A DNA stretch of 57,576 bases. Source: Desulfobulbaceae bacterium (GTDB taxonomy: Bacteria; Bacteroidota; Ignavibacteria; Kapaibacteriales; UBA2268). How positions within the stretch are numbered: position 1 is the stretch's first letter; every line of letters starts with the position of its first letter. This document shows positions 22,150 to 54,301 of this stretch, piece by piece. A program made the translations under genes and the position numbers. A model generated the notes under the pieces. That model searched no databases and was not told where the DNA came from. It saw only the letters and a program-made list of their open reading frames with translations. The DNA is taken from contig JAGXRP010000042.1 in the NCBI GenBank assembly GCA_018335795.1, positions 1 to 57,576 of the forward strand. Reading direction: 5' to 3'.

Positions 22150-24489
22150 ATGAAAAAGTATCAAAAATATATCGTATCTTTATGCTTGCTTATAATGTTA
22201 GGCAGTACCAATATTTTATTTAGCTCCACAGAAGTATCTGTGCTCGGGCAAGTTACCGAGAAAAACGGCAAAGGGATACCCGGAGCAACAATCCGAATCC
22301 CAAATACTGTACTTGGGTCGGTCGCAAACGTTGAAGGTAATTTCAATTTGAAAAGAGTGAAAGCCGGAAAAGTTAAATTCTTGATTTCAGCAATTGGTTA
22401 TAAAAGTCAAGAAGTTGAATTCTACATCCAAAACTTCGAAACGACATACGAAATTGGAAATATTGTGCTCGAGGAATCATCAATCAACACATCTGACATA
22501 ATCGTAACGGCTACTCGTTCCGAAAAAATTTATGAGGATGTGCCGGTCAAAGTTTCAGTGCTTGACGACAGAATTTTCTCTTCTGTATCTGCAATTACTC
22601 TAAACGAAGGATTAGCATTCCGCCCGGGACTACGAATCGAAAACAACTGCCAAAATTGCGGATTCAATCAAGTAAGAATAAACGGGCTCGATGGTAGATA
22701 TTCGCAAATCCTGATTGACAGTAAACCAATCTTTTCTGCACTCAATGGCGTTTATGGCTTAGAACAAATTCCTCAGAATATGATTTCTCGAGTAGAAATT
22801 ATTCGTGGCGGCGCATCTACTTTATACGGCGGAAATGCCATTGCAGGTGTCGTAAACGTTATTACCAAAGACCCCGAATTCGATGGCGTTAATGTTGAAA
22901 TGAGCCAATCAGTTCTACCGGGTAACCGCAGCGATGAAGCCTTTGAAGGCTCCGACAGAACTTTTAAAATATCCGGACAATTACTTAATAACCATGAAAA
23001 TTTGGGAATACATATTCACGCAATGAATCGTTCAAGAGATGCTTGGGATGCCAACAACGACGGATTTAGCGAAATACCGTCGATTGATTTGATTGTGTTT
23101 GGCGGTAAAATGAACTATAAACCTGATATTTATACACGAATCGGTTTGGAGTATCATAATATCAATGATAGTCGTCGCGGTGGCAATAAATTCCATTTGG
23201 CGCCACATCTAACCGATGTGACTGAAATGGTCGAACATAATATTAATGCTATTGGATTAACTGCCGAGAGATACATAAATAGTTCTGATAAAATCTCATC
23301 TTATTTATCCTACCAAAATACTCATAGAGACAGTTACTACGGCAGTGGAGGCGACGAAAATGCTTATGGCATTACTGATAATTATACCTTGGTTTTCGGG
23401 TTGCAATACACCAAAGCTATTAGCCAATTCGCAGGAGAGCATGTCTTGACAACCGGATTTGAATATAAGCATGATGATTTGAAAGATTTATCGCCTGCTT
23501 ATAATAGAGCAATCATTCAAGAATCGCATGATTTTGGCTTGTATATACAAGATGATTGGATGCTTTCTGATTTGTTCAGTATCTTGAGCGGTGTACGATT
23601 TGACAAAAGTAACTTTATCGAGGATTTAATTCTTAGTCCGAGATTTAATGTGCTGATGAAATTATCGTCAAATATGTCGCTTCGTACCAATTTTTCGACG
23701 GGATTCAGAGCTCCACAAGTTTTCGATGAGGATTTGCACCTTACGCAAGTAAATGGTGGCGGAATGGTAATATCAAACAGTCCTGACCTGAAGTCGGAAC
23801 GCTCAATTTCCTATGGTGCATCTTTAGACCACAATATTAGCTTCGGCAGCGTTCGCTCATCTTACTCTTTAGAATTCTTCTCGACAAATCTCATAAATGC
23901 TTTTGTTCTCGAAAACACAGGAACAAACGAAAATGGAGACATGCTTTTAGTCCGAGTAAATGCAGAAAACGCTACAGTTAGGGGTCTAACTGCGGAATTT
24001 ATGATTGAACCTTGGGATTTTTTGAATTTTTCTACAGGGTTTACATACCAAACGTCGAAATATTCTGAAGCAATTGAATGGTCTGAAGGACTTGAAAGCG
24101 GACAATCAAGTACGGAAAATATGCTTCGCACTCCTGATTTGTACGGATTCTTTACAATTTCATCGGACATCACTTCCAAACTGAATTTCACTGTTTCGGG
24201 AGTTGTAACAGGACCCATGCTCGTTCCGCATTATGCAGGTGGAATTGGGCTTGATGGTCTTGAAAATGTAGATGACAAATTAGTCGAAACCTCAACATTC
24301 GCAGATTTGCATTTGAAAGTTTCATACCAAATTTTCTCTCAACCTAACTTGGAACTTGGTTTTACTGTTGGTAATTTGCTTAATTCATTCCAAAATGACT
24401 TTGACAGAGGCATGAATAGCGACGCAGGATATATTTATGGACCAACAAGACCTCGATACTTCGCTCTGAATCTAAAGGCAGGAATTTGA
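22150..24489 (+). CDS. TonB-dependent receptor with carboxypeptidase-like N-terminal domain
   Basis: A 779-residue outer-membrane active transporter. Signal peptide about 1-25. An Ig-like CarboxypepD_reg domain (about 28-110, GQVTEKNGKGIPGATIRIPN) follows, then the plug (about 120-235) and a 22-strand barrel ending YFALNLKAGI. The plug carries NNCQNCGFNQVRINGLDG, a CxxC pair typical of a subgroup of Bacteroidota receptors, then QILIDSKPIF and VEIIRGGASTLYGGNAIAG. The CxxC and the His-rich neighbour suggest a metal or metal-chelate as cargo; this is inference. The barrel is intact and full length. Confidence 0.9.
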   Translation: MKKYQKYIVSLCLLIMLGSTNILFSSTEVSVLGQVTEKNGKGIPGATIRIPNTVLGSVANVEGNFNLKRVKAGKVKFLISAIGYKSQEVEFYIQNFETTYEIGNIVLEESSINTSDIIVTATRSEKIYEDVPVKVSVLDDRIFSSVSAITLNEGLAFRPGLRIENNCQNCGFNQVRINGLDGRYSQILIDSKPIFSALNGVYGLEQIPQNMISRVEIIRGGASTLYGGNAIAGVVNVITKDPEFDGVNVEMSQSVLPGNRSDEAFEGSDRTFKISGQLLNNHENLGIHIHAMNRSRDAWDANNDGFSEIPSIDLIVFGGKMNYKPDIYTRIGLEYHNINDSRRGGNKFHLAPHLTDVTEMVEHNINAIGLTAERYINSSDKISSYLSYQNTHRDSYYGSGGDENAYGITDNYTLVFGLQYTKAISQFAGEHVLTTGFEYKHDDLKDLSPAYNRAIIQESHDFGLYIQDDWMLSDLFSILSGVRFDKSNFIEDLILSPRFNVLMKLSSNMSLRTNFSTGFRAPQVFDEDLHLTQVNGGGMVISNSPDLKSERSISYGASLDHNISFGSVRSSYSLEFFSTNLINAFVLENTGTNENGDMLLVRVNAENATVRGLTAEFMIEPWDFLNFSTGFTYQTSKYSEAIEWSEGLESGQSSTENMLRTPDLYGFFTISSDITSKLNFTVSGVVTGPMLVPHYAGGIGLDGLENVDDKLVETSTFADLHLKVSYQIFSQPNLELGFTVGNLLNSFQNDFDRGMNSDAGYIYGPTRPRYFALNLKAGI

Positions 24490-24511
24490 TGAAAAAATAT
24501 TAAAATAGTTT

Positions 24512-24537
24512 GTAACTTTTTGGCTTTTCATGTGTCT
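24512..24537 (+). promoter_or_regulatory. ECF-sigma-like promoter (site A)
   Basis: GTAAC (24512-24516), 16-nt spacer, TGTCT (24533-24537), with T-rich flanks, resembles ECF sigma promoters of Bacteroidota. A near copy lies at 29622-29648 (site B). It lies 23 nt past the receptor stop and points to the structured element at 24586. Confidence 0.45.
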
Positions 24538-24585
24538 ATAGTATAAGAAACAAAAATGTAATTTGAAATAAAAAATAAAAATTAA

Positions 24586-24692
24586 GCGGGAGCTTTTAAC
24601 GTTTGCCATGTTGAATTTCTTTATCTCTTCATTAGCACTCCCTGAATCGAAAAAAATTCGGTATGGCGTTAAAATCAACTCCCGCTGTTTTA
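24586..24692 (+). ncRNA. Structured intergenic element, possible small RNA
   Basis: A 100-nt bulged inverted repeat: GCGGGAG/CTCCCGC (24586-24592 with 24679-24685), TTTTAAC/GTTAAAA (24594-24600 with 24668-24674) and GCCAT/ATGGC (24605-24609 with 24663-24667). A small hairpin CGAA-TTCG lies inside, and a T-rich tail follows on both strands. Site A lies 50-75 nt upstream on the + strand, so this could be a small RNA driven by an ECF sigma factor. It also overlaps a 34-codon frame (24608-24712, ATG start) of unknown worth. Alternatives: a bidirectional terminator between convergent genes, or a miniature inverted-repeat element. It fills the 219-nt gap after the receptor. Confidence 0.4.
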
Positions 24693-24708
24693 TTTTATCA
24701 AATTTACT

Positions 24709-25881
24709 TTAGACTATTTCTATTATCAAGGCGTTTGCCTCTCCACCACCAATACACAATGTAGCCAAACCACGCTTTAAACCTTTTTCCTTCAAAGCAT
24801 AAATCAAAGTTGTGAGAATTCTTGCACCGGACGCTCCAATTGGATGTCCTAATGCAACGGCACCACCATTGACGTTTACTTTTTCATGTGGGATACCGAG
24901 TTCGCGAAGTGAGTGCATCGGCACACATGAAAATGCTTCGTTTATCTCGAACAAGTCAATATCTTCAACTGTTAAGCCCGTTTTGTCTAATATCTTTTTG
25001 ATTACAGCAGTAGGTGCGGTAGTGAACCATTCGGGTTTTTGAGCGTGCGAGCAATGAGCAATAACTTTTGCCAATGGTTTTAAACCTTTTGATTCTGCCC
25101 AAACATCTGAAGTGACTACCAATGCAGCAGCTCCATCATCAATAGAGGAAGCATTTGCGGCAGTGATTGCACCGTCTTTTTTGAAAACTGCTTTCAATTC
25201 AGGGACTTTTTCAAATCTAACTTTTGAAGGCTCTTCGTCTTCCGAAACGGTTATATCACCTTTCTTTGAAGGGATGACAACGTTTACGATTTCATTCGCA
25301 AATCTGCCGGATTTTTGTGCATCCAAAGCACGTTTGTAGCTTTGAATAGCGTATTCGTCTTGGGATTCGCGATTTATGTCACATTCTGTTGAGCAAAGTT
25401 CACCTGCAAGCCCCATGTGGAATTTGTTATAAACATCCCACAAACCGTCATGCACCATTGAATCAATCAACTCGCCGTTACCCATACGATAGCCGGTACG
25501 AGCATTTTGAAGCAAATATGGTGCATTGGACATAGATTCTTGACCGCCTGCAACAACTACTTGTGCATCGCCGCATTTAATAGCTTGGTCAGCAAGCATC
25601 ACGGCCTTCAGTCCGCTTCCACACACCTTATTAATAGTCATACATTCAACCGATTCGGGCAAACCGGCATAAATTGATGCTTGCCTGGCAGGTGCTTGTC
25701 CAACTCCTGCAGCAAGTACATTACCCATAATAACTTCGTCAACGTCTTGAGGACTTATTCCTGCACGGTTGACAGCTTCTTTAATAGCGATTGCTCCCAA
25801 CTGAGGAGCTGTTAGTTGCGAAAGAGAGCCCATGAAGGCACCAATTGGAGTTCTTGTTGCTGATAAGATAACTGAGTTCAT
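24709..25881 (-). CDS. Acetyl-CoA C-acetyltransferase (thiolase)
   Basis: A 390-residue type II (biosynthetic-like) thiolase that condenses two acetyl-CoA or cleaves acetoacetyl-CoA. The acylated Cys is in NKVCGSGLKAV near residue 88. NEAF, GGAVALGHPIGASGAR (His near 348) and CIGGGEANALIIE (second Cys near 378) complete the active site. The start TTCTAATACGTTCAT-type N-terminus MNSVILSATRTPIGAFMGS is normal and full length. No other beta-oxidation or polyhydroxybutyrate gene is adjacent, so the pathway is open. Confidence 0.92.
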   Translation of the reverse strand: MNSVILSATRTPIGAFMGSLSQLTAPQLGAIAIKEAVNRAGISPQDVDEVIMGNVLAAGVGQAPARQASIYAGLPESVECMTINKVCGSGLKAVMLADQAIKCGDAQVVVAGGQESMSNAPYLLQNARTGYRMGNGELIDSMVHDGLWDVYNKFHMGLAGELCSTECDINRESQDEYAIQSYKRALDAQKSGRFANEIVNVVIPSKKGDITVSEDEEPSKVRFEKVPELKAVFKKDGAITAANASSIDDGAAALVVTSDVWAESKGLKPLAKVIAHCSHAQKPEWFTTAPTAVIKKILDKTGLTVEDIDLFEINEAFSCVPMHSLRELGIPHEKVNVNGGAVALGHPIGASGARILTTLIYALKEKGLKRGLATLCIGGGEANALIIEIV

Positions 25882-29621: not shown

Positions 29622-29648
29622 GTAACTTTATTATAACTTCATGTGTCT
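29622..29648 (+). promoter_or_regulatory. ECF-sigma-like promoter (site B)
   Basis: GTAAC (29622-29626), 17-nt spacer, TGTCT (29644-29648), embedded in TTGTAACTTT...CTTCATGTGTCTTTT, very like site A at 24512. It is the only promoter-like signal in the 199-nt gap before the T9SS gene and would leave a leader of about 120 nt. Confidence 0.5.
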
Positions 29649-29776: not shown

Positions 29777-31849
29777 ATGAAAAGATTTTTTTACACAATG
29801 CTTGTGATGGCAGTATTTCCTGCCCTATTGTATTCACAAGGTATTTTCCTAAACGAAGCAGACAATTCTTCTGCTCAGAATCATAAGAACGAATCTGAAC
29901 TTCTGAAAATTTTACCGGAAGTGAGCTACGACAAACAATTGGCACCACTTACTCAAGGAAAATTCAAAGAAATTGGTATCACAATTGACTTGATTTTCAA
30001 CACTTACTACTCAGGAGTTACACCATTTGTTTACGAACCTAATTCAGGTACTTTGATATATGTCCAAACAGACAGAATCAGAGTTCCAAACGTTGACTCT
30101 TCAGCTTTGACAGGAATAATCGTACTTTACACTTCACAAGATGGTGGCGAAAATTGGCAAACACACGAAATTTACCGTAAATGGGGTAAGGTCCCTGTTA
30201 ATGCATCTATTGCAGTTTTAAATCCAAACAATGAAACTAATCCTGCAAACTTTAAATATGTAATCTCAACAAGATTCTTCCAATTGAACAGAAGCACCGG
30301 TACAGATAACTATGAAAATAAAGGTGGATTGTTCTTACTTTATGAAGGTAATAACTTCACATATTTTGAATATCCTGAACCCGGACCATTGTCAAATAAC
30401 CCGGGTACAAATCAGCGTTGGAGTATGGCAAATATGACTGCATCCGGAGCTAAGAATGGTAATTACTTCTATGCAGGTGGCTTACTGACACCGGCTAATG
30501 AATTTATTCAATATGGTTATTATGGCTTTGGTTATGTTGGTCTTGACGCAGCTGATGTTGGCTCTTCAATTCCTGCACAATTCAATTACGACCAATTTAA
30601 ACCAAGTACGGGTGGATTAGGCTCTTCTTTTACCAGTCAAATGAATCTTGACGTTGACGCTCAAGGCAATGTTTATGCGGCTGTTAATAATCACTTTAAG
30701 CCAAATACAGAAGATAGAGGTAGAGTTGTTGGCGTTGCAAAATCAATTGATAATGGTAAAACTTTTTCAGAATTCAACAAAATGTCTGCTTCAATAATTG
30801 ACGATTTTGTAACTTTCAAAGGTGGAAATCCAACTATCGGTGTTTCAACACCTGGCTCATACCCATATTCATCAAACGGTTTTAGAGTTATAGCAGAAGA
30901 TGAATATAGTTTTATCTATAGAATATTTAGTTTTACATCTCAACAATCTTATGATACATATATTGTAGAAGCTTATCGTAAGGGCGGTCAATGGGGCATG
31001 AGAGAAATTTCAACTTTTAGTGGTAACAAATGGAGAATTCCATATGTTATTCAAGACACTAATTCAATCACTCAGACAGACCAATTCTTTGACAATTCAA
31101 GACAACACGAAGTACAACTTGCAATTACCGCTGATGGCCAATATCTTGTTGCGAAATGGATGGACAACCGTCAAGATTTAGTAGAACTTGCTACTCCATA
31201 CCCAACATTAGTTGGAAGTGGACAAATTGATTCAATGTTAACTACAGATATTTTCTACTCATATAGACCTGTTAACGGTACACAATGGTCACCGGCATAT
31301 AATTTGACAAATGACGTATGGATGAACAAGGGCACTTGGATTCCTAACATAGTTCCAAGTATCAACAAAATACCAGTCATCGAACATGCAACCGTAAGAT
31401 TTACAAATCCTTCAAACCCAAGAATTGCTTATCCTTACTTCTTGCAAAACTTTGTGGTTGAAGCCAGCATTCGCAATCACATTCTTGTTGCTACATTTGA
31501 CGGTCTAAACCCGGGCAATATCCGTAACGAAGCTATTCAAGTTCCTGAAGGAGTTGCCGGTGTAAGTAGTGTTGATGAAGTAAATTACAACTTCAGATTA
31601 TTCAACATGAGTCCTAATCCGGTCAACAATGATGGTTATATCAACTATCAATTAGATGCTCCAGGCCATGTAACTATTGACATTCACAATTCTTTAGGTC
31701 AAAAAGTCATGAATGTACGCAATGCATTCACAGACCAAGGCTTATGGCAAGCTAATTTCTCAGCTTCAGAATTGCCAGCCGGTGCTTATTTCTACACTTT
31801 GACATTCAATGGCAAATCTGTAACAAAACCAATGCACATTGCTCGTTAA
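29777..31849 (+). CDS. Large T9SS-secreted protein with sialidase-like propeller
   Basis: A 690-residue secreted protein. Signal peptide MKRFFYTMLVMAVFPALLYSQ. The body (about 60-580) reads as a beta-propeller with Asp-box-like turns (SQDGGENWQ, SIDNGKTF), as in sialidase/BNR-repeat proteins, without a recognisable catalytic Arg triad. The final 80 residues are a T9SS sorting domain: NMSPNPVNNDGYINYQL, DIHNSLGQKVM, SELPAGAYFYTLTFNGKS and a final strand. AAGGA precedes the ATG. Terminators on both sides make it monocistronic, with an ECF-like promoter. Likely an abundant surface or extracellular protein; the ligand is unknown. Confidence 0.8.
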   Translation: MKRFFYTMLVMAVFPALLYSQGIFLNEADNSSAQNHKNESELLKILPEVSYDKQLAPLTQGKFKEIGITIDLIFNTYYSGVTPFVYEPNSGTLIYVQTDRIRVPNVDSSALTGIIVLYTSQDGGENWQTHEIYRKWGKVPVNASIAVLNPNNETNPANFKYVISTRFFQLNRSTGTDNYENKGGLFLLYEGNNFTYFEYPEPGPLSNNPGTNQRWSMANMTASGAKNGNYFYAGGLLTPANEFIQYGYYGFGYVGLDAADVGSSIPAQFNYDQFKPSTGGLGSSFTSQMNLDVDAQGNVYAAVNNHFKPNTEDRGRVVGVAKSIDNGKTFSEFNKMSASIIDDFVTFKGGNPTIGVSTPGSYPYSSNGFRVIAEDEYSFIYRIFSFTSQQSYDTYIVEAYRKGGQWGMREISTFSGNKWRIPYVIQDTNSITQTDQFFDNSRQHEVQLAITADGQYLVAKWMDNRQDLVELATPYPTLVGSGQIDSMLTTDIFYSYRPVNGTQWSPAYNLTNDVWMNKGTWIPNIVPSINKIPVIEHATVRFTNPSNPRIAYPYFLQNFVVEASIRNHILVATFDGLNPGNIRNEAIQVPEGVAGVSSVDEVNYNFRLFNMSPNPVNNDGYINYQLDAPGHVTIDIHNSLGQKVMNVRNAFTDQGLWQANFSASELPAGAYFYTLTFNGKSVTKPMHIAR

Positions 31850-35688: not shown

Positions 35689-35744
35689 CAAACAAGAAAC
35701 ATGAATAAAAAACATAAAAAAACATATAAAATGAAAAAAAAGTT

Positions 35745-44115: not shown

Positions 44116-47100
44116 ATGCAACCATTGCAAATCCCGAGAAGAGGATTCCGTAAGATTTCTATCAAAATCGCCTCGCCGGATGATATATTGAATCGTTCAC
44201 ATGGCGAAGTTACTAAACCGGAAACTATCAATTATCGGTCGTTTCGTCCTGAAAAAGATGGGCTTTTTTGCGAGAAAATCTTCGGTCCTATACGCGATTG
44301 GGAATGTGCCTGTGGCAAATACAAACGTATTCGCTACAAAGGTATAGTATGTGACCGATGCGGTGTCGAAGTTACACAAAAATCTGTGCGTCGCGAACGT
44401 ATGGGGCATATCCAATTGGCTGTTCCTGTGGTTCACATTTGGTTTTTGCGTAGTTTACCAAGCAAAATTAGTGCAATTCTCGGTATGCCGACTAAGGATA
44501 TCGAAAGAATTGTTTACTATGAGTCATATGCTGTAGTACGTCCGGGCAACACCCAACTGCAACCGCGAGATTTATTGACTGAAGAACAATATTTGGACAT
44601 CGTTGAGAATTTGCCGAAAGATGAACTTGATTTAGATTTCGATGACAAGAACAAATTCTTAGCCCTTATTGGTGGCGAAGCCATCAAAGAATTACTAAAA
44701 CAAGTAGAGCCTGAACGTACTTATTACGAATTGAAAGCCAGACTTAAAGAAGAAACTTCTCAACAGAAAAAAACGGAATTACTAAAACGCCTAAGAGTGC
44801 TTGATGCATTCCGCTCAAGTATGAAAGGCGAATACCCCAACGAACCGAGTTGGATGGTATTGGATATCGTTCCCGTGACACCTCCTGACTTGCGTCCGCT
44901 TGTGCCGCTCGAAGGTGGTCGTTTTGCAACGTCTGACTTAAATGACCTTTATAGACGTGTTATCATCAGAAACAACAGACTCAAACGCCTCATTGATATT
45001 CGCGCCCCTGAAGTTATCCTGCGTAATGAAAAGAGAATGCTTCAGGAAGCAGTTGATGCACTATTTGATAATAGTCGTCGTGCAGTCCGAAGCGAATCTC
45101 AACGTGCACTCAAATCTCTTGCTGATACTTTGAAAGGTAAAACAGGTAGATTCCGCCAAAACTTACTCGGTAAACGTGTTGACTATTCCGGTCGTTCGGT
45201 TATCGTCGTTGGTCCGGAGCTTAAGATTCACGAATGTGGATTGCCCAAAGATATGGCGGTCGAATTATTCAAACCTTTTATTATCAGAAAATTGATTGAA
45301 AGAGGTCACGTAAAAACTGTTAAAAGCGCCAAGAAAATGGTCGAACGCAAAACTAACGAAGTTTGGGATATTTTGGATAAAGTAATTGACGGGCATCCGG
45401 TATTACTTAACCGTGCCCCGACTTTGCACAGACTTGGTATTCAAGCGTTCCAACCACGTCTAATCGAAGGTAAAGCTATCCAATTACACCCACTCGTCTG
45501 TACTGCATTCAACGCAGACTTTGACGGTGACCAAATGGCAGTTCACTTGCCGATTAGCTTTGAAGCACAGCTAGAAGCTATGCTCCTTATTTTGGCACCG
45601 CATAATATCATGCACACCCAAAATGGCGACCCGATTGCCGTTCCATCGCAAGACATGGTACTTGGAGTGTATTATTTGACAAAAATGAGGCCGGGAAGCA
45701 AGGGCGAAGGCAAAGTATTTGCTTCTGCTGATGAAGTAATTATTGCATATGATTGCGGTATCGTAGAATTAAATACAAAAATTAAAGTTCGATATCGTGG
45801 CGAAATGCTCGATACTACTGTCGGCAGAATCATTTTGAATGATATTGTTCCCGAAGAAATGGGCTATATCAATGAATTACTCACTAAAAACAGACTTCGC
45901 CAATTAATCGGTAATTGCTTCCGCGCTGCAGGATTGGCTAAAACTGTCGAGTTTCTCGATGATTTGAAAGAAATGGGCTTTACTTATGCCACTAAAGGTG
46001 GACTTTCTGTTAGTGTTGATGACGTTATCATACCTGACGCTAAGAAAAGCATTATTACAAACGCCCAAAATAATATTGATAAATTTGAAGATGCATACCA
46101 AAACGGTGTAATTAGTGCCGGCGAACGTTACAACAAAATCATTGACACATGGTCAACTGCGACTAACTTAGTTGCAGACCGTTTATATAGTGAAATGCAA
46201 CGCGATAAATCCGGATTTAACACATTTTGGATGATGTTGGATTCTAAAGCTCGTGGTTCTAAAGAGCAGATTCGTCAGCTTGCCGGGATGAGAGGTTTGA
46301 TGGCAAAACCTAAAAAATCTTTATCCGGTTCGACAGGCGAACTTATCGAAAACCCGATCATATCGAACTTCAAGGAAGGCTTGTCCATTCTTGAATACTT
46401 TATCTCAACTCACGGTGCTCGTAAAGGTCTTGCCGATACTGCACTTAAGACTGCCGATGCAGGTTACTTAACTCGCAGACTTCATGACGTCGCCCAAGAT
46501 GTTATCATTTCCGAATCCGACTGTGGTACAATTCGCGGTGTGGAAATGACGGCACTGAAAGACGGCGAGGAAATCAAAGAGCCTTTGGTAGAACGTATCA
46601 TGGGTAGAGTTGCTCTTCGTGATGTGGTTGACCCACTTACAGAGGACGTAATATGCAAAGCCGCTCAAGTAATAGACGAAAAAGTTGCCGCTCAAATCGA
46701 AGCATCTTCTGTCGAATCTGTTTTGATTCGTTCGGTATTGACTTGTGAATCGCGTCGTGGTGTGTGTGCCAAGTGTTATGGACGTAATCTTGCAACCGGA
46801 AAAATCGTTGATACTGGCGAAGCAGTTGGTACAATTGCATCACAGTCAATCGGCGAACCGGGGACGCAGCTTACTCTTAGAACATTCCACACAGGTGGTA
46901 CTGCAGCTTTAGTTGCTTCACAATCATCTGTTCAAGCTAAATTTGATGGCGTTATTCAATTTGAAAATGTTAAAACTGTCAGTTACGAAGGCGACGAAGA
47001 GAAAATCGTTCTGGCTACCAGCCGAAGCGGTATTATTAATATTGTTGACCAAGAAAGTAACAGAACTCTAACGAAATACGATTTGACTTACGGAGCACAA

Positions 47101-53235: not shown

Positions 53236-54234
53236 TCAATAATTCAATACGTAATTATTCAAAGCTTTCATATATTGGGCTCTTTCGTAAGAACTTGGGT
53301 CGGGGATGTTGAGTTGGCTCATACTTCCTTGCATTTGCATAATTGATTCGTATTCGTGTTCGGTCATCCATTCTACCATTTCTTCTTCGATGTCTTTGAT
53401 ATAATCTACTCCGTAACGGAGCAATGTAGAACAAAGCATAGTGACATTTGCACCTACGAGCATTATCTTGATTACATCTTCTCCATAGTGGATGCCACTT
53501 GTAGCAGCGAGGTCGGAGAATATTCTCCCTTTTAGAATCGCAATCCATCTCATCGGTAAACGCAAATCGGTTGGGTTGCTCAAAATTATATGTGGCTCTA
53601 CTTCGAGTTCTTCCAAATTAATATCGGGTTGGTAGAAGCGATTGAACAATACAAGTGCATCTGCACCGGCGGCATCGAATCTCTTTGCCATGTTTGCCAT
53701 ATTTGAGAAAAACGGGCTAAGTTTGAGTGCTACCGGAACGCTGACGGCTGCTTTCACTGATTTAAGGATTTCTACATATTCATCTTCGATTTCGGCACCA
53801 GTTTTGTCCAATTCTGTAGGGATATTATAAATATTCAATTCAATAGCATCAGCACCTGCGGTTTGCATTTGCTTAGCGAAATCAGTCCACCCACCCACAG
53901 TAGAGCCGTTAATACTGGCAATTACAGGGATTTTTACACTTTCTTTTGCTTTGCGAATATGTTCGAGATACTCGTCTGGTCCAAGGTTGTATTCGCTTGT
54001 ATCGGGGAAATAACTCAATGATTCCGCAAAGGCTTCTGTGCCTTGAGTGGTATGATAAAAGAGTTCCTTTTGTTCGAATTTGATTTGCTCTTCGAATATT
54101 GAATACATCACCAGAGCTGAAGCGCCGGCATCCTCAATTTTTTTTATACCGTCCAAAGTTCTTGATAATGGCGAAGCAGATACAACAAGTGGCGACTTAA
54201 GAGTCATGCCCATGTATTTTGTTTTCAAGTCCAT
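53236..54234 (-). CDS. Dihydroorotate dehydrogenase-like flavoprotein
   Basis: A 332-residue FMN-type TIM barrel of the DHOD superfamily: SPLVVSASPLSRTLDGIKKIEDAGA, then NGSTVGGWTDFAKQMQ, ALKLSPFFSNM and GADALVLFNRFYQPD. Where true class 1 dihydroorotate dehydrogenases have an NxSCPN loop with the catalytic Cys (or Ser), this protein has ELNIYNIPTELDK, with no Cys or Ser. It is therefore probably not a pyrimidine enzyme. Similar proteins are often encoded beside nifJ in FCB bacteria. Here it follows nifJ by 67 nt, with an intervening hairpin. A role in ferredoxin-linked redox or assembly is inference. Confidence 0.75.
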   Translation of the reverse strand: MDLKTKYMGMTLKSPLVVSASPLSRTLDGIKKIEDAGASALVMYSIFEEQIKFEQKELFYHTTQGTEAFAESLSYFPDTSEYNLGPDEYLEHIRKAKESVKIPVIASINGSTVGGWTDFAKQMQTAGADAIELNIYNIPTELDKTGAEIEDEYVEILKSVKAAVSVPVALKLSPFFSNMANMAKRFDAAGADALVLFNRFYQPDINLEELEVEPHIILSNPTDLRLPMRWIAILKGRIFSDLAATSGIHYGEDVIKIMLVGANVTMLCSTLLRYGVDYIKDIEEEMVEWMTEHEYESIMQMQGSMSQLNIPDPSSYERAQYMKALNNYVLNY

Positions 54235-54276
54235 AATTTACTCCAATTAAATTTTTTAATTTTCAATAGAATTATA

Positions 54277-54296
54277 GAAGCGGATTGCTCCGCTTC
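54277..54296. repeat. Hairpin between nifJ and the DHOD-like gene
   Basis: GAAGCGGA-TTGC-TCCGCTTC, a perfect 8-bp stem 5 nt past the nifJ stop. On the minus strand no T run follows, so it is more likely an mRNA-stabilising or processing element than a terminator. Confidence 0.5.
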
Positions 54297-54301
54297 CGTA
54301 T

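Follow-up and report, generated by a model that had tools for sequence, protein, structure and literature searches.

Introduction

The csRNAs of Streptococcus, which belong to the CiaR regulon, carry an anti-Shine-Dalgarno sequence and mostly a CAU anti-start in unpaired regions (PMC3091779). In Salmonella, RaiZ represses hupA at the ribosome-binding site (PMC5391140). Outside the Proteobacteria, sigmaE-dependent small RNAs (sRNAs) are described from Fusobacterium, where FoxJ and also FoxI are named (PMC11005410), and in Flavobacterium psychrophilum the motif SM6 of an extracytoplasmic function (ECF) sigma factor stands ahead of type IX secretion system (T9SS) genes and ECF sigma/anti-sigma genes (PMC9723704). 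In this study, we describe an element in a stretch of 57,576 nucleotides (hereafter the window; contig C42, JAGXRP010000042.1) of the 3.53 Mb genome of a Desulfobulbaceae bacterium (GCA_018335795.1; G000). The element occupies the gap between a TonB-dependent receptor gene and a thiolase gene and is, judging from the comparison of related genomes, very probably an sRNA gene.

The element shares some properties with each of these systems and differs in others. Like the csRNAs, it combines an unpaired anti-Shine-Dalgarno sequence with CAU, thought to block the start of translation, and its promoter appears, like theirs, to belong to one stress-type regulon. On the other hand, in the csRNAs, which a response regulator controls, this stretch separates two stem-loops, whereas the element has it in the loop of a single hairpin, without the two-stem-loop arrangement, and stands behind an ECF-type promoter; the sequence relation between them was compared via Rfam only (PMC3091779). 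As with RaiZ, the target predicted for the element is an HU-type gene (predicted duplex of -27 kcal/mol); RaiZ, however, arises by processing of the 3' end of raiA and requires ProQ, whereas the element has its own promoter and TonB receptor and thiolase neighbours (PMC5391140). FoxJ is likewise found outside the Proteobacteria behind an ECF sigma promoter and is of similar length (about 156 nt), but it represses a porin mRNA and its sigmaE dependence was established by experiment, whereas the promoter of the element is read from the sequence (PMC11005410). SM6 belongs to a related phylum and resembles the motif of the element in that T9SS and ECF sigma genes lie behind it, and F. psychrophilum also has structured sRNAs such as Rfp18; the -10 box of SM6 is CGT, unlike that of the element, and the available text does not place Rfp18 behind SM6 (PMC9723704). 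Among the matches listed, no paper is titled on such an RNA in Ignavibacteria, Kapabacteria or Chlorobi, although coverage of the literature is incomplete.

Results

Conservation and fold of the element

The 219-base gap contains TTTGTAACTTTTTGGCTTTTCATGTGTCTATA, an A-rich leader, a 103-nt hairpin and a T-rich end (Table 1). Across three species of the genus (G000, G001 and G002), a run of 100 nt in the hairpin region, loop included, is invariant. The identical columns amount to 42/42 in the 5' arm, 20/20 in the loop and 38/41 in the 3' arm, and the hairpin substitutions within the genus are confined to a small bulge. The promoter is identical in 29 of its 32 columns, the leader region (24541-24584) in 91%, and the spacer upstream (24490-24508) in 13 of 19. 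In the neighbouring genes, the third codon positions agree at 298/503 (part of the TonB receptor gene) and 221/391 (thiolase), i.e. 57-59%. When 991 noncoding 100-nt segments of the aligned stretch were scored, the mean identity was 0.84 and the segment at 24575 came first, at 1.0; the second, at 35741 (0.99), overlaps by eye an rpmI frame missed by gene calling.

The preliminary description of this locus, made from the DNA alone, had pointed to GTAAC-N16-TGTCT just past the TonB receptor gene on the + strand, followed by a bulged inverted repeat with three stacked stems and a T-rich end. The promoter-like motif with its 16-base spacer and the T-rich end were found as described. The bulged, three-stem repeat is also present, but the 7, 7 and 5 bp given for it understate the stems, since the outer stem (24585-24592/24679-24686) has 8 bp and the inner arms (24605-24622/24650-24667, G-U pairs included) are longer. 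The second stem lies at 24594-24601/24667-24674, a small apical stem with an 11-nt loop stands above the inner arms, and GTTTTATTTTAT comes after the hairpin stems. The fold energy in Table 1 is that of the + strand of 24584-24688 alone, and none of 200 shuffles folded as low.

In the RNA of our genome, UUAGCACUCCC / TTAGCACTCCC is predicted to be unpaired with a probability of at least 0.82, and the C and A of CAU lie mostly within the weak apical stem. The spacing of CAU and CUCCC in the loop is that of a start codon and a Shine-Dalgarno sequence. On the - strand, 24627-24647 reads like a start site that opens a frame of three codons (GGGAG-N5-AUG AAG AGA UAA). A further observation concerns the predicted leader, where an ATG immediately followed by TAA (24557-24562, + strand) is retained in all three species of the genus.

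At the gathering score, Rfam found four tRNAs in the window and nothing else, and at E<=5 just three implausible families appeared, far under their cut-offs; 6S RNA or another Rfam family was accordingly rejected, there being no match to an Rfam model. A repeat or mobile palindrome was also ruled out, as the element is single-copy in its own genome.

Table 1. Position of the element, its parts and its neighbours in the window
Feature	Position	Strand	Remarks
TonB-dependent receptor gene	22150-24489	+	upstream neighbour of the sRNA element
ECF-type promoter, TTTGTAAC ... TGTCTATA	24509-24540	+	most likely ECF-type; GTAAC-N16-TGTCT at 24512-24537; member of an enriched motif
A-rich leader of the RNA (predicted)	24544-24584	+	start at about 24544 inferred from the -10 position
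Long hairpin	24585-24687	+	minimum free energy -31.9 kcal/mol, z -4.7; invariant at 24575-24674
Conserved apical segment, CTTCATTAGCACTCCCTGAAT	24627-24647	+	anti-start CAT at 24630-24632; anti-Shine-Dalgarno CTCCC at 24638-24642
T-rich, terminator-like end	24688-24700	+	from the sequence; TTTTTT retained in G020
Acetyl-CoA acyltransferase (thiolase) gene	24709-25881	-	downstream neighbour, convergent

The promoter motif and its other sites

The bare pattern GTAAC-N15-17-TGTCT occurs three times in the window against 0.19 expected, and 19 times in the whole genome against 21 for the reversed pattern; since the genome-wide count is not above the reversed control, the bare pattern was dropped as evidence. 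A longer form of the promoter (query 13-70) is present in many genomes of the family, among the matches listed. With the extended motif TTGTRACWTTTTNNNNTTTSATGTGTCWWT, composed after inspecting these matches and allowed three mismatches at most, we found 18 sites in G000, 17 in G001 and 16 in G002 (51 in total), and none with the reversed pattern in any of them.

We read 57 distinct motif sites, six of these from other genera, for what lies downstream. A plausible gene follows 54 of the sites, and the remaining three are the copies of the sRNA element. In all 54, a same-strand frame begins 5-299 nt downstream (within 130 nt in 48), and these frames have at least 140 codons, except one of 40 codons at a contig end (L227). 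By the same mechanical rule, the frames at the element have 57-76 codons, lie 272-330 nt away and run antisense inside the thiolase gene; they were disregarded in the gene count. The element is therefore the exception among the motif sites, carrying a hairpin in place of a gene.

The 54 motif-bearing genes include ECF sigma genes of three kinds; a fourth (L150) carries a related site not captured by the TTGTRACWTTTTNNNNTTTSATGTGTCWWT pattern. Among the genes that were scanned, some encode a cNMP-binding, LVIVD or TPR domain or, right at the cut-off, a rhomboid domain; one is subtilase-like below the NCBIfam cut-offs, many start like secreted proteins by eye, and L047 has a T9SS sorting tail. 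Because the motif sites precede ECF sigma genes and genes for secreted-looking proteins, the promoter of the element is most likely ECF-type. The same make-up of the motif-sharing genes is the sole ground on which we consider a putative role of the element in envelope stress. The published SigP motif of P. gingivalis, as given in the available part of its report, is unlike the promoter motif of the element (PMC4800418), and the available part of PMC12596196 has nothing bearing on the motif.

Two further motif arrangements were observed. One ECF sigma gene of G001 (L233, G001:C15:62400-65400, - strand) is preceded by three tandem promoter copies 62 nt apart. In the window, GTAAC-N17-TGTCT lies at 29622-29648 (+), about 130 nt upstream of 29777-31849, whose protein carries the T9SS type A sorting domain of TIGR04183 (37 bits; the cut-off is 23).

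A homologue outside the genus

The covariance search across relatives that the preliminary description had suggested was made with model R1 on 54 genomes of the family, and it gave a weak match (24 bits, E 0.055) in G020, which belongs to another genus. This copy has GTAAC-N16-TGTCT, then a hairpin with unrelated stem sequence (-33.5 kcal/mol, z -5.5), then TTTTTT, and it lies between porin-like and serC-like frames that point apart (names by eye). Its loop is CTTCATAAGCACTCCCGGAAT, and the loop common to the genus and G020 reads CUUCAU(U/A)AGCACUCCC(U/G)GAAU. In the G020 RNA, the whole of CAUAAGCACUCCC is predicted to be open with a probability of at least 0.99. The unpaired arrangement of the csRNAs is thus seen for CUCCC in both RNAs and for CAU in that of G020. 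The preliminary description had proposed an sRNA behind a sigma-specific promoter, with joint conservation of promoter and stems as the check; promoter, stems and loop are indeed conserved jointly in the three species and recur together in G020. These comparisons establish the motif of the promoter, the hairpin, the conservation of both together and the homologue at a second locus.

Searches by loop agree on the same copies. The loop pattern CTTCATNAGCACTCCCNGAAT, with up to two mismatches, gave six matches in the family genomes and none in the reversed control. Four of these, without mismatch, are the three genus copies and G020; the other two, with two mismatches, lie inside a long frame without the promoter (G023) and in a coding-like stretch by eye (G001:C5). 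The shorter core TCATNAGCACTC gave 26 matches in 13 of 16 chosen genomes, against 11 in the reversed control, and promoter, strongest fold and absence of a long frame come together only at the G020 copy. A DNA search of the 54 family genomes with the hairpin found it at full length in the three genus genomes only; the other matches listed were at most 34 nt, over no more than 37 query bases, and the two that were inspected (L142, L145) showed nothing resembling the element.

Model R1 gave matches in 7 of the 54 genomes at E<=1. Those in G019 and G010 lack the loop by eye. Four matches in G031 (L172, L176, L177 and L178) are hairpins with a common palindromic core, e.g. GTTTCAGCATC...GATTCCGAAAC, and by eye look like a dispersed repeat or palindromes. 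On 22 of the 67 named TonB-receptor loci, R1 gave a single match, which is the locus of G002 itself (L067). Model R2, built from the G020 sequence alone, reached the genus copies at just 17.5-19.6 bits, and a joint structural alignment by MAFFT did not align the unrelated stems, so that the G020 sequence satisfied 12 of the 38 own pairs. DNA, covariance and loop-pattern searches yielded no sRNA copy in G034 and G068, which belong to the genus of G020, or in G008.

Predicted target start sites

We searched the three genus genomes with CAGGGAGTGCTAATGA, allowing two mismatches, and obtained 15 matches, three of them the element itself, against two in the reversed control. One match, AAGGGAGTGCTAATGG, is common to the three genomes; it is the start site of an HU/IHF-type gene and is complementary to the loop over 14 nt in each species. 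The best NCBIfam model for this gene is HU-beta (E 3.9e-24, below its curated cut-off). A second site is the start of a flagellar gene (TIGR02530, flg_new, above cut-off), where the match is exact in G001 and has one mismatch in G000. The predicted duplex energies are -27.1 kcal/mol for the own HU site and -25.1 (G000) and -37.5 kcal/mol (G001) for flg_new, compared with a background of 289 start sites (mean -10.2, sd 3.5 kcal/mol), which were drawn from retrieved loci and include the HU site itself. The next best background site reached -24.2 kcal/mol and is a doubtful start in G001. Among 60 start-like sites, eight looked real, five of which were the HU and flg_new copies added on purpose. 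In G002, a gene for a secreted-looking protein has the start site GGGAGTGTTTATG (L404, G002:C8:7990-8002, - strand), which pairs with the loop of our genome at -25.3 kcal/mol, and from this predicted pairing it is a possible third target. No porin target turned up, and no genome-wide search for porins was made.

HU was matched in 49 of the 54 family genomes. Between the genera, the HU start site differs (GAGTGCTTATG in G020 vs GAGTGCTAATG in the genus), as does the loop (CATAAGCAC vs CATTAGCAC), and the U to A change in the loop mirrors an A to U change at HU. The own loop pairs with its own HU site at -27.1 and with that of G020 at -18.9 kcal/mol, and the summed energies favour the cognate pairs of loop and HU. 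Of 30 HU loci retrieved, 28 were scored; the other two (L290, L305) were missed by the expression and, when read, were without the motif. Seven of the 28 sites (the three of the genus, G034, G020, G068 and G008) reach -17.1 kcal/mol or below with the own loop, the next being at -14.4.

Discussion

Taken together, we propose a trans-acting sRNA of about 150 nt on the + strand, with a predicted start near 24544 and an end near 24690-24700. It would be transcribed by RNA polymerase with an ECF sigma factor, four ECF sigma genes carrying the motif or a related site, and would consist of an A-rich leader and one long hairpin that doubles as the terminator. The hairpin would display a loop complementary to the Shine-Dalgarno sequence and AUG, and pairing of this loop at the start site would stop ribosome loading on selected mRNAs, the mRNA of the HU-type nucleoid protein being the leading predicted target and that of flg_new the second. 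In this scheme, we infer transcription, the identity of the sigma factor, pairing in the cell and repression. We consider the account as a whole probable. Its central prediction, that the sRNA occludes start sites, is probable to a similar degree, and the chances that HU is a real target appear to be about even.

Several observations weigh against this account. The whole gap (24490-24708) ranks just seventh, with an identity of 0.922, among the 28 scored intergenic gaps of the window (30 were listed, two being unaligned). The longest invariant run of the window is one of 114 nt at 54185-54298, across a gene end and the next gap; another, of 101 nt at 44212-44312, is coding. As the stems do not vary among the three species of the genus, covariation lends them no support there. 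The - strand of 24584-24688 folds at -36.5 kcal/mol (z -6.0), which beats the + strand, and since both strands fold strongly, the strand was not chosen by folding. As for the targets, the flg_new match was not seen in G002 in the CAGGGAGTGCTAATGA search with up to two mismatches, and a predicted fold of 180 nt leaves little of the own HU start site unpaired. A second HU change in G020 (GG to GA before GAG) has no matching change in the loop, and the G020 loop does not discriminate between the HU sites of G020 (-21.5 kcal/mol) and of our genome (-21.7 kcal/mol). When loops were shuffled with CUCCC and UCAU kept, -27.1 kcal/mol was reached over the 289 sites in 1.5% of 200 trials, so that chance could still account for HU alone genome-wide, and an HU-grade match by chance over a whole genome is not negligible. 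Lastly, no sRNA copy was detected in G034, G068 and G008, although their HU start sites are similar, and because most of the seven sites are among the closest HU relatives, the likeness may come from shared descent.

The chance of an HU-grade match and the HU sites kept without a copy would also agree with an ECF-dependent sRNA that acts otherwise, on other mRNAs or by protein binding, the HU and flagellar matches then being chance likeness of start sites. Genomes that lack the sRNA also have, next to loop-like matches, GGAG-N5-ATG starts with a similar spacer (L322, L334 backwards; by eye), which points the same way. We nevertheless regard this as rather unlikely, considering that the 14-nt HU match stands in exact start-site register in three species, that a second start site matches in the same register and that G020 has the matching change.

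The simpler option raised in the preliminary description, a bidirectional intrinsic terminator between convergent genes, here with a chance promoter-like sequence, would explain the convergent neighbours, the T-run on each strand of the hairpin and the strong fold on both. Plain terminators, however, have no conserved promoter of their own, invariant loop or homologue between divergent genes, and the other convergent gap of the window has an identity of just 0.776. In addition, the promoter belongs to a motif with no site in the reversed control, and the genes are convergent in the genus but divergent in G020, where the same promoter and loop recur, which favours the + strand and argues against simple termination between convergent genes. 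Termination alone is accordingly a very unlikely explanation, although, because of the T-rich tails on both strands, bidirectional termination may be a side function in the own genus. The more stable - strand fold, together with the start-like reading of the loop on that strand, would suit a functional - strand RNA, either a structured 3' end of the thiolase mRNA or an sRNA derived from it. This we hold to be still less probable, as no thiolase lies beside the G020 homologue, the + strand promoter and T-run are retained there, and the G020 loop core agrees with the + strand reading. Least probable is a small protein gene. A 34-codon frame (+) and a 68-codon frame (-) do exist, but there is no synonymous change across the invariant stretch, the 34-codon frame loses its stop in G001 and extends to 51 residues, the end of the 68-codon frame is divergent in G001 and G002, and the longest open frame across the G020 loop has 31 codons. 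Both frames were rejected on these grounds, and the doubt that the preliminary description had cast on the 34-codon frame was justified, as this frame is not gene-like.

In summary, the element is best read as an ECF-dependent sRNA with a loop directed at start sites. Because the target prediction is precise to the base, it could be tested in a laboratory host, though the organism is known from metagenome assemblies. We tentatively suggest, at somewhat less than even confidence, that the element represents a new family of sRNAs in Ignavibacteriota whose single hairpin both terminates transcription and displays an anti-start loop, linking ECF signalling to the translation of HU and flagellar mRNAs, and in which control of the HU start site arose separately from RaiZ. 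If true, the element would be a noncoding arm of an ECF regulon in Ignavibacteriota, and a second lineage with sRNA control of the HU mRNA start site would suggest that HU is a recurrent target of sRNAs.
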